Below, piece after piece: positions 46,719 to 50,227 of a stretch of 64,000 nucleotides of DNA. How positions within the stretch are numbered: the stretch's first letter is position 1; every line of letters begins with the position of its first letter. Location of the stretch: positions 1 through 64,000 of the forward strand of contig NZ_RCWF01000013.1 in NCBI RefSeq assembly GCF_003667345.1, written 5' to 3'. This stretch comes from Poseidonibacter antarcticus (lineage in GTDB: Bacteria > Campylobacterota > Campylobacteria > Campylobacterales > Arcobacteraceae). The translations under genes and the position numbers were made by a program. The notes under the pieces were generated by a model, which saw nothing but the letters and a program-made list of their open reading frames with translations, was not told the DNA's origin and ran no database searches.

Positions 46719-46747
46719 AATTATTCATGCACAGAAAAGGAACATTT

Positions 46748-47095
46748 ATGAATATAGAAAAAATTAAAGAATCAATACAAGAGTTTTCAACACAAAGAAA
46801 TTGGGAAGAATTTCATAATCCTAAAAACTTAAGTATGGCATTAAGCGTTGAAGCATCTGAATTACTTGAAATATTTCAATGGTTAAGTTTAGAACAATCT
46901 GCTAATTTATCAAAAGAAAATCATGAACATGCAAAACAAGAAATTGCCGATGTTGCAATATATTTAATACGAATATGTATGAAATTAGATATAGATTTAG
47001 AAGAGGCTATAAATGAAAAAATGATTTTAAATGCAATTAAATATCCTTTACAAGATAAAAATGGTAAAAACATAGAATATGGAAAAAAATCATAA
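46748..47095 (+). CDS. MazG-like nucleotide pyrophosphohydrolase
   Basis: A 115-residue protein of the RS21-C6/MazG-like all-alpha NTP pyrophosphatase group, likely a house-cleaning dNTPase. The metal-binding motif is SVEASELLEIFQWL (ExxE) and the second acidic helix is QEIADVAIYLIRI (ExxD). It begins MNIEKIKESIQEFSTQRNW, the conserved substrate-binding start. ATG 46748 is chosen because AAGGA lies 7 bases upstream; an ATG at 46727 would add MHRKGTF. It may be transcribed with the following membrane protein locus after a 74-base gap, which is not certain. Confidence 0.88.
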   Translation: MNIEKIKESIQEFSTQRNWEEFHNPKNLSMALSVEASELLEIFQWLSLEQSANLSKENHEHAKQEIADVAIYLIRICMKLDIDLEEAINEKMILNAIKYPLQDKNGKNIEYGKKS

Positions 47096-47169
47096 GTTTT
47101 TATTATTAATATTTAACACTTATTTAATTAATAAAAGATAGAATATCCAACAAATTATAGGAGTTTTTT

Positions 47170-47430
47170 ATTACTACTTTATCAAAGAATTTTATTTTAA
47201 TAATTACTATTTTATTTTCTATATTTATTTATTTTATTTTTATTCATTCAAAAATAAATAATACTAATTATGAACTTACAAAAAGTATTTCTTCAATAAC
47301 AACTCTTCCAGGACTAGTAACTTCAAATACAATTTACGAACCTAGAATTAGATTCTATAAAGATTATTCTTATACATTTTACCCCGAACAACAAAAAATA
47401 AATTATCTGGATTTTATATATGAAAAATAG
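47170..47430 (+). CDS. Small membrane-anchored protein with apparent AUU start
   Basis: An open frame of 86 codons between an in-frame TAG (47158-47160) and a TAG stop at 47428-47430 that contains no ATG, GTG or TTG. GGAG at 47160-47163 lies exactly 6 bases before ATT at 47170, the likely initiator. The product has a short basic start (TTLSKN), a membrane helix (FILIITILFSIFIYFIFI, about 8-25) and an extracytoplasmic tail with LPGLVTSNTIYEPRIRFYK and YTFYPEQQKINYLDFIYEK. The stop overlaps the permease start by 11 bases, which supports a coding role. AUU initiation is known for infC. A point mutation that ruined an ATG, or a sequencing error, are the alternatives. I do not recognise the family. 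Confidence 0.68.
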   Translation: MTTLSKNFILIITILFSIFIYFIFIHSKINNTNYELTKSISSITTLPGLVTSNTIYEPRIRFYKDYSYTFYPEQQKINYLDFIYEK

Positions 47431-48598
47431 TACTTTTTTTAATTTCTTATTTCTTTTGATATATAAACATAAATCAAAGCATATCGCTATTTCCCTAATC
47501 TCTGTACTTATTGTATTTTTAATTTCTTCAGTATTATTTATGTCTTCATCAATACAAAAAGAGTTATTCTCAACACTAGATGCACAAAGTGATTTTGTAG
47601 TACAAAAAATGAATCAAGGAAGAATCATAAATATTCCTAATTCTTGGATAGAAGATTTCTCACAAATCAATGGAGTGAAAAATGTTCAACAAAGAGTTTA
47701 TGGACAATATTATTTCCAACCTTCAAAAAAATACTTTACAATCGTTGGAGTTGATTTATTTGAAGAAAATATAAATAAAAATATTAAAAAACTATTATCA
47801 AAATTGAATATTTCTGTTTTCCTTGAAAAAGATTCTATGATTATAGGAAATGGCGTTAAAAAACAATTTGATAAATTTTATTATTCTAATGATTATTCTT
47901 TTAAATTATCTAATAGAGAATTAAAAAAAGTATCCATTTTTAAAGACCTTCCAAAAGCTAGTAATTTAATTGCAAATGATTTGATTATAATGGATATTTC
48001 ACTTGCAAAAGAGATATTAAATATAAATGAAGATGAATCAAGTGATATTATATTAAATGTCCCAAATGAATTAGAAAGACCAAATGTAAAAGTTGAATTG
48101 ATTTTAAAGCATTTAGACATTAGAGTTATCCAAAAAGAAGATATTAAAAAAGCCTATGAAAACTTATATAATTATAAAGGTGGATTATTTTTAATTTTAT
48201 TTATCATTGTTATGATAACTTTTGTATTAATTTTATACCAAAGATATACAATGATTTCTTCATCTGACAAAAAAGAAATTGGAATTTTAAAAGCTGTTGG
48301 GTGGAGTATAAAAGATATTATAAAACTAAAAATTTTTGAAACTTTTATAGTTGCATTTTTAGCTTTTTTAATTGGAATTATTTTTGCTTATATTTTTGTA
48401 TTTATTTTAGATGCACCACTTTTAAGTAATATTTTTTTAGGATTTCATAACTTGGAAAACAATGTTTCATTTATACCAAATATTAGTTTTTCAAGTATTG
48501 TAACACTATTTATATTTTTTATAATTCCTTTTATAAGTGCAGTTTTAATTCCTGTTTGGAAAATTGCAGTTATAGATGCACATGAGAGTATGAAATGA
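47420..48598 (+). CDS. FtsX/MacB-type ABC transporter permease
   Basis: A 392-residue permease with the type VII ABC topology: one N-terminal membrane helix (HIAISLISVLIVFLISSVLF, about 22-41), a large periplasmic domain (about 45-250) and three C-terminal helices. The cytoplasmic coupling segment before helix 3 reads SDKKEIGILKAVGWSIKDII, as in MacB and LolC/E, which use ATP hydrolysis for mechanical work in the periplasm. It overlaps the small AUU-start ORF by 11 bases and the ATPase gene by 4 bases. The periplasmic partner or cargo is unknown; the coupled small protein and the Cys-containing membrane protein are candidates. Confidence 0.88.
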   Translation: MKNSTFFNFLFLLIYKHKSKHIAISLISVLIVFLISSVLFMSSSIQKELFSTLDAQSDFVVQKMNQGRIINIPNSWIEDFSQINGVKNVQQRVYGQYYFQPSKKYFTIVGVDLFEENINKNIKKLLSKLNISVFLEKDSMIIGNGVKKQFDKFYYSNDYSFKLSNRELKKVSIFKDLPKASNLIANDLIIMDISLAKEILNINEDESSDIILNVPNELERPNVKVELILKHLDIRVIQKEDIKKAYENLYNYKGGLFLILFIIVMITFVLILYQRYTMISSSDKKEIGILKAVGWSIKDIIKLKIFETFIVAFLAFLIGIIFAYIFVFILDAPLLSNIFLGFHNLENNVSFIPNISFSSIVTLFIFFIIPFISAVLIPVWKIAVIDAHESMK

Positions 48599-49266
48599 TA
48601 AAAGTCAATAAGTTAAATAAAGTATTTAATCAAAATACAAAAAAAGAGTTTCACGCATTAAAAAACATAAATATACAAATACAAACTTCATCTTGCGTGA
48701 TATTAAAAGGTGTAAGTGGATCTGGAAAATCTACCCTACTTTCAATTTTAGGAACACTTTCTAAGCCTTCTAGCGGTGATATAATTGTAGATGATGATAG
48801 TATTGCAAAATTACCTGATTTGCACGCATCTTTATATAGAGCTAAAAACCTAGGATTTATTTTCCAGTCATATAATCTTTTTAATGAATTAGATGTCTCT
48901 GAGAATGTTTCAATTCCATTAATACCTATAGGATTTACACAAAAACAAATAAATGAAAAAGTAAAAATAACTTTAAATCTTGCAAATATAGAACATAAAA
49001 AAAATGAAACAGTTTCTAACCTTTCAGGTGGAGAAAAACAAAGAGTTGCCATTGCAAGAGCTTTAGTAAATAATCCTGATATTATACTTTGTGATGAACC
49101 AACTGCAAATTTAGATACTAATAACTCATTAAAATTTATTGAAGTAATGAGAAAATTAAAAGCACTAAAAAAAACAATTATCATAGCAACACACGATCCT
49201 ATTTTTGATAATCTTGATTTTGTAAATGATATTATAAATATAAAAAATGGAGAGATACTTGAATAG
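48595..49266 (+). CDS. ABC transporter ATP-binding protein (LolD/MacB type)
   Basis: A 223-residue ATPase with all motifs intact: Walker A LKGVSGSGKSTLLSILG, Q-loop FIFQSYNLFNELDVSENV, signature NLSGGEKQRVAIARAL, Walker B IILCDEPTANLD and the switch His in IIIATHDPIF. The arrangement and length match LolD, FtsE and the MacB nucleotide domain. It overlaps the permease gene by 4 bases (ATGA) and the next membrane protein gene by 8 bases, so the complex is likely made in fixed proportion. Confidence 0.93.
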   Translation: MIKVNKLNKVFNQNTKKEFHALKNINIQIQTSSCVILKGVSGSGKSTLLSILGTLSKPSSGDIIVDDDSIAKLPDLHASLYRAKNLGFIFQSYNLFNELDVSENVSIPLIPIGFTQKQINEKVKITLNLANIEHKKNETVSNLSGGEKQRVAIARALVNNPDIILCDEPTANLDTNNSLKFIEVMRKLKALKKTIIIATHDPIFDNLDFVNDIINIKNGEILE

Positions 49267-50227
49267 CGTACTTTTATCAAATGAAATCATAGTATTTTTA
49301 TTTACACAAATAACACTTTTAGTTTTACTTACTATCTCTTTTTTTTATTCAATCTCAATTATTAAAAACTGGGATTATTCAAAAACTACACAAACACAAT
49401 ATAAACTTGAAAAACGTTCATATTTAGTAATATTAATTATAACATTTACAATGATAATCAAAATATTCCTACTTCCTTATTTTGCTTATAGTATTGATAT
49501 ACTATCCAATATAGTCCCTGGTGCGATGTGTGCAGCTGGTGTTATTGGAGCAAATGAATATGGTCAACCTCTTTTAGGTTTTAAAGTTGTTCTATTGTTT
49601 TTTATTGGTATTTGGATGATTTTAAATACACTTGATTTAAAAGAGAAAACATATCCATATACAAAGAAAAAGTTTTGGTTTTTTATTTTTATATTTGCAC
49701 TTATAGTAATAGAAACTACTCTTGATATTTTATACTTAACAAATATCTCAACACAAGAACCAGTTCTTTGTTGTTCAGTAATTTTTGGAGCAAGTTCAAC
49801 AGGTGGACAAATACCATTTAACTTAAATATTCCAATGCTTTTAGTGATTTTTTACTTATTATATTTTCTTAGTATATTTGTTAACATTCAAAAAAATCCA
49901 TACCTAAATATACTTGTAAATATTTTATTCCTTTACATCTCTTATTATGCAGTTACCTACTTTTTTGGAACATATATCTATGAATTACCAACACATAAAT
50001 GCCCATTTTGTATGCTGCAACATGAGTATTTTTATATAGGTTACTTTATTTGGGGTTCTTTATTTTTAGGAGTATTTTATGCTTTTGCATACTCAGCACT
50101 TAAACTTTTTGTAAATAAATCACTTGATTATACCTTGAAATATTCACTTATTTTTAATACATTATTTGTATTTATTTGTACTTTTTATGTAATTAGATTT
50201 TATTTTGTAAATGGAGTTTTTCTTTAA
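49259..50227 (+). CDS. Cys-containing polytopic membrane protein
   Basis: A 322-residue protein with about eight membrane helices. I do not recognise the family. It has three Cys sites at helix ends: GAMCAAGVIGANEYG (Cys91), PVLCCSVIFGASSTGG (Cys171-172) and THKCPFCMLQHEYF (Cys248 and Cys251). The last resembles the CxxC-plus-Gln entrance of DsbB/VKOR-type proteins, so thiol redox or soft-metal handling is possible. I prefer the TTG at 49259, with GGAG 6 bases upstream inside the ATPase gene, over the ATG at 49247, which has no ribosome binding site. It overlaps the ATPase gene and ends in a terminator shared with the convergent helicase gene. Confidence 0.7.
   Translation: MNSVLLSNEIIVFLFTQITLLVLLTISFFYSISIIKNWDYSKTTQTQYKLEKRSYLVILIITFTMIIKIFLLPYFAYSIDILSNIVPGAMCAAGVIGANEYGQPLLGFKVVLLFFIGIWMILNTLDLKEKTYPYTKKKFWFFIFIFALIVIETTLDILYLTNISTQEPVLCCSVIFGASSTGGQIPFNLNIPMLLVIFYLLYFLSIFVNIQKNPYLNILVNILFLYISYYAVTYFFGTYIYELPTHKCPFCMLQHEYFYIGYFIWGSLFLGVFYAFAYSALKLFVNKSLDYTLKYSLIFNTLFVFICTFYVIRFYFVNGVFL

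Follow-up and report, generated by a model that had tools for sequence, protein, structure and literature searches.

A candidate small membrane-protein gene with a near-cognate start codon at the head of an ABC transporter operon in Arcobacteraceae

The window analysed here, a 64,000-nucleotide stretch of contig NZ_RCWF01000013.1 of Poseidonibacter antarcticus, contains an 86-codon frame that is probably a genuine gene encoding a small membrane protein with a single helix, placed at the head of an operon of overlapping genes and begun by a near-cognate start codon that probably serves as a throttle (Table 1). The frame contains no ATG, GTG or TTG anywhere along its length, and gene finders limited to those three codons would miss it. 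An AUU, AUC, AUA or ACG start was found in the window gene and 51 relatives, so that the conserved non-canonical start extends over 50 genomes of two families and two further MAGs. To our knowledge, very few natural non-canonical starts have been characterised in bacteria (those of infC, pcnB and sigR); the small gene, with four near-cognate codons in two families, would be a new and more widely spread case beside them.

Table 1. Features of the small-gene operon and its upstream region, with the ACG-started orthologues of family f7
Feature	Position in window	Strand	Basis or remark
TTTAAC-N5-TTTAAT direct repeat, 11-bp period	47112-47128	+	likely activator site or -35 region
TAGAAT, predicted -10 box	47139-47144	+	TANAAT at matching place in orthologues
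TAG in-frame stop	47158-47160	+	bounds the frame on the upstream side
GGAG Shine-Dalgarno	47160-47163	+	6 nt ahead of ATT
ATT start codon	47170-47172	+	ATT/ATC/ATA across Arcobacteraceae, ATC/ATT/ACG in f7
Small membrane-protein gene, 86 codons (candidate)	47170-47430	+	orthologues, alignments, dN/dS, AlphaFold
FtsX-type ABC permease	47420-48598	+	PF02687, E 5.6e-13; ATG overlaps small-gene stop by 11 bp
TAG stop of small gene	47428-47430	+	sequence
ABC ATPase, LolD/FtsE/MacB type	48595-49266	+	PF00005, 1.6e-32; overlaps permease stop by 4 bp
Multi-spanning membrane protein, Cys pairs including CPFC	49247-50227	+	overlaps ATPase stop by 20 bp
f7 orthologues starting with ACG (six)			L108, L110, L112, L115, L118, L124

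An 86-codon frame without a canonical start

A preliminary description of the window had given the bounding stops, the GGAG-N6-ATT arrangement, the length of 86 codons and the 11-bp overlap with the permease gene, all of which hold. At random, a stop-free stretch of 86 codons has a chance of about 5e-4 per starting position in DNA of this composition, and the small gene is the sole intergenic frame of at least 55 codons without a canonical start in the window, except for two frames at its extreme right end. The initiation motif itself is common by chance (GGAG-N6-ATH occurs 17 times in the window, against 14 expected), and the case for the small gene therefore rests on conservation: what puts the frame above chance is the set of 38 orthologues with similar starts, together with a dN/dS well below 1. 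The protein is under purifying selection, with dN/dS values of 0.11-0.54 in 14 pairs of genes (the last five codons, which overlap the permease gene, were left out), differences that fall mostly at third positions in most pairs, and amino acids that are kept through synonymous changes in codons 2 to 6.

The small protein matched no family of Pfam or NCBIfam, the isolated weak hits being judged to be due to chance. AlphaFold predicts a long helix (residues 3-44) and a tail with a pLDDT of about 50, and the modelled protein would consist of one transmembrane helix and a tail of about 45 residues, in keeping with the membrane-anchored product originally proposed.

Start codons and leaders of the orthologues

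Orthologues turned up in seven congeners and in four other genera when 60 related genomes were searched at the protein level, and a profile run against 104 Arcobacteraceae genomes extended the count to 39, the genome of the window included (38 orthologues among 103 others), all located upstream of the same FtsX-type permease gene. The aligned first codon is ATT in 21 of these genes, ATC in 13, ATA in five and ATG in none. The preliminary description had favoured a non-AUG start ahead of the ABC locus and had named a mutated ATG as the alternative; the comparison of orthologues supports the former, and the probability that a sequencing error or a recent mutation of ATG affects the genome of the window only is negligible, ATG being absent from all 39 genes in complete and draft genomes alike, which excludes a lone event of this kind. 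The codon is preceded by GGAG at a spacing of 6 nt in 33 of the 39 genes and of 5 nt in two more (35 of 39 at 5-6 nt); in the four species that make up the ATA clade (g2/g11), AAGGA or GAGGG takes its place.

The non-canonical start recurs beyond the family. Family f7 comprises 22 genomes with 11 readable orthologues, which start with ATC (four), ATT (one) or ACG (six) and are thus non-canonical throughout, with GGAG at a spacing of 6 in eight of the 11. Two MAG loci found by a contig scan with a permease alignment, one from Sulfurospirillum (L120) and one from a member of the Sulfurimonadaceae (L121), begin with ATC or ATT. Sequence alignment establishes the position of the start codon and the absence of AUG from it in every orthologue of Arcobacteraceae and f7, and every non-canonical start seen differs from AUG by exactly one base.

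The sister clade f6 provides a natural contrast for the purpose of the near-cognate start: its start codons are canonical in 13 of 13 orthologues (11 ATG and two TTG), and the start position is homologous (ATG ACC AAG in f6, ATC ACA AAA in f7). GGAG at 4-9 nt precedes the weak-start genes in 35 of 39 Arcobacteraceae and eight of 11 f7 orthologues, against one of the 13 ATG- or TTG-started genes of f6; a strong Shine-Dalgarno sequence thus seems to accompany the weak start, an association that rests on one evolutionary contrast. When start codons are mapped onto a permease tree of 63 rows, the non-canonical start is conserved across species, and the switch between canonical and non-canonical occurs once among 14 codon changes in all, 11 of which are third-base changes among ATN starts (about ten turnovers of the non-canonical codon, never to ATG).

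The leader is also conserved. In 34 of the 39 Arcobacteraceae orthologues, the start codon is preceded by a repeat of the form [TA]TTAA[CT]-N5-NTTAA[CT] that begins 56-60 nt and ends about 41 nt upstream of it, and in the same 34 a TANAAT box ends 23-27 nt ahead of the start codon; the window contains the exact pattern of repeat and box at 47112-47144. If TANAAT is the -10 element, the predicted leader is about 18 nt long, which would be too short for an upstream frame. Upstream neighbours differ, a MazG-like gene (46727-47095) in the window and in genome G002 being replaced by a divergent DksA-type gene in other species, and the small gene should therefore have its own promoter. RNA structure prediction at the start found no fold beyond those of shuffled sequences (z -0.6 to 1.1). 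The 11-bp direct repeat upstream of the -10 box is suggestive of a site for an OmpR-type regulator; the repeat pattern recurs at a few other conserved places (among them G000 C11:2117 and G002 C1:2819967), but backward-pattern controls also match.

These data bear on the reading that ATH is merely an internal isoleucine codon, the true start being upstream or the frame being entered by frameshift or stop-codon readthrough, which is very improbable. Its support comes from several f7 genomes whose upstream NosL gene is in frame with the small gene and terminates directly ahead of it; where NosL terminates in frame just upstream, as it does in G168, G245 and other genomes, readthrough could add product. 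In the f7 genomes G285 and G214, however, NosL ends in another frame, and most Arcobacteraceae have no NosL upstream, so that readthrough of a NosL stop is impossible in all of these. No upstream frame is conserved, the predicted leader is short in 34 of 39 orthologues, and in-frame stops lie 0-3 codons upstream of the start in many species: TAA immediately precedes ATC in G001, G003 and G006, and TAG stands two codons ahead of ATT in G018, G066 and G075, making an upstream in-frame start impossible in these six. Canonical codons do lie near the start in G035, where GTG directly before ATA leaves the case ambiguous with GTG as a possible alternative, in G126, where TTG abuts the Shine-Dalgarno sequence, and in G086, where TTG is located 12 codons upstream.

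Codon choice at the start also departs from that of an internal residue. ATC makes up 33% of starts against 9% of internal isoleucine codons, ATA is rarer among starts than among internal isoleucine codons, and ACG is used by six of the six f7 orthologues that lack ATH, against 13% of f7 threonine codons, although these counts ignore relatedness. The excess of ATC and ACG sets the start apart from internal isoleucine or threonine, and both an internal isoleucine and an upstream start were rejected on the strength of this codon choice and the adjacent in-frame stops. The same pattern argues that the start codon is not drifting freely.

A neutral origin would require that start strength hardly matters, that a strong Shine-Dalgarno sequence is enough, and that ATG simply never arose. 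G is indeed rare in the third position (only 4% at four-fold sites in these genes), and with a probability of about 0.6 mutation alone would fail to produce it in the course of some ten third-base changes; this is not significant, and an argument for selection against ATG from the absence of G alone was rejected. The neutral account is nevertheless improbable, since ATC is over-represented and ATA under-represented at the start relative to internal isoleucine codons (again in counts that ignore relatedness), and since purifying selection generally acts on AUG starts (PMC5622118). We infer, short of proof, that ATG is actively selected against.

A probable throttle on the operon

The most likely mechanism is initiation at a near-cognate codon (AUU in the window) that mismatches the initiator anticodon at exactly one base and lies behind a well-placed GGAG: the strong Shine-Dalgarno sequence would recruit ribosomes, and the weak codon would keep initiation low. 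All four genes of the operon overlap in the window (the small gene, the permease, the ATPase and the CPFC gene), and with the permease start inside the small gene and further overlaps downstream, translational coupling would give this one codon control over the yield of the entire transporter. The weak start probably limits transporter production in this manner, and the role in expression control suggested in the preliminary description would fit the pattern. Coupling to the permease is less than certain, because the permease gene has a GGA-like site of its own in the window.

That site lends itself to a rival in which the start codon is a fixed stoichiometric brake without coupling, the small protein alone being kept low and the permease being translated from its own site. 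This is possible but doubtful. In its favour, GGA lies 8 nt ahead of the permease ATG in the window, and ATG is the permease start in all 38 readable cases; on the other hand, the permease Shine-Dalgarno sequence is weak, the genes of the operon overlap throughout, and 38 of the 39 genes keep an overlap of 8-11 bp between the permease ATG and the small-gene stop (the remaining one is not readable).

Alternatively, the throttle may be a switch responsive to initiation factor IF3, by which a shortage of IF3 or a loss of initiation fidelity would raise operon output, after the manner of infC and sigR control; we regard this as a tentative proposal. The starts belong to the class that IF3 discriminates against, each having a single mismatch to AUG, and in vitro AUU read by the CAU anticodon yields less product as IF3 rises (Katoh and Suga, PMC10158994). 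Against this, ACG has its mismatch at the second base, which is reported not to be tolerated (PMC10158994), the lineage shows no sign of autogenous AUU control, its infC gene seemingly being started by TTG, and we know of no signal that links IF3 to the transporter. IF3 dependence of the start is plausible. The stronger claim, that the weak start is itself selected and the operon acts as a sensor of IF3 or initiation fidelity in two families of Campylobacterota, which would have retained a codon that ribosomes ought mostly to refuse over some ten base changes and four codons, is rather unlikely. If it were true, the strength of a start codon would be a regulatory element that can be tuned in genes other than those of translation, and the phylum would hold a class of genes hidden from gene finders restricted to ATG, GTG and TTG.

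The infC gene of E. coli and many other bacteria (AUU or AUC) likewise has a conserved near-cognate start, but its control is autogenous, whereas the small gene belongs to a transporter operon and encodes a membrane protein. The small gene is not infC: it has no Pfam match, hence none to PF05198, and infC is located elsewhere in the genome. This infC (L086 in the genome of the window; L068-L088 overall) appears to begin with a conserved TTG, not ATT or ATC, and these Campylobacterales may therefore lack the classic autoregulation through AUU; the analogy with infC autoregulation was rejected on this ground, and a non-infC target such as sigR is the better one. The AUU start of pcnB in E. coli limits its expression, making pcnB another non-infC gene restrained in the way suggested for the small gene, although its product is a cytoplasmic poly(A) polymerase and not a membrane protein heading an ABC operon.

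The sigR gene of Streptomyces, which has a non-canonical start and is translationally repressed by IF3 (PMC5472188), offers a precedent for the IF3-responsive switch. It shares with the small gene a conserved non-canonical codon (GTC or GTT) in a gene other than infC, a strong Shine-Dalgarno sequence, a history of being missed or misplaced by annotation, and a place as the first of a coupled gene set (PMC5472188). The two differ in that sigR is a case from one genus with demonstrated IF3 repression, whereas the small gene extends over two families with ATT, ATC, ATA and ACG starts and is known from sequence.

Composition of the operon

The permease, ATPase and CPFC genes follow the small gene in nearly every locus whose sequence extends far enough to include them. 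The operon resembles FtsX, MacB and LolCDE transporters in having a permease of PF02687 and an ATPase nearest to LolD/FtsE/MacB, but it falls far below the equivalog cut-offs, with the permease scoring 26.8 bits against 362.45 for TIGR02212 and the ATPase, for which the nearest NCBIfam family is LolD, scoring 193.9 bits against 307.75 for TIGR02211, and these scores do not place it within LolCDE. It further differs in its extra small protein and CPFC protein, and in its NosL neighbours in relatives. The CPFC membrane protein, conserved as the product of the last operon gene, has no Pfam match above the cut-off and carries what we take to be a VKOR/DsbB-like motif. NosL is a copper-linked family, and NosL-type genes precede the small gene in f6, f7, g2 and g11 genomes; in the genome of the window NosL is not beside the small gene, being encoded on another contig. 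A role of the operon in metal handling may be entertained as a lead only.
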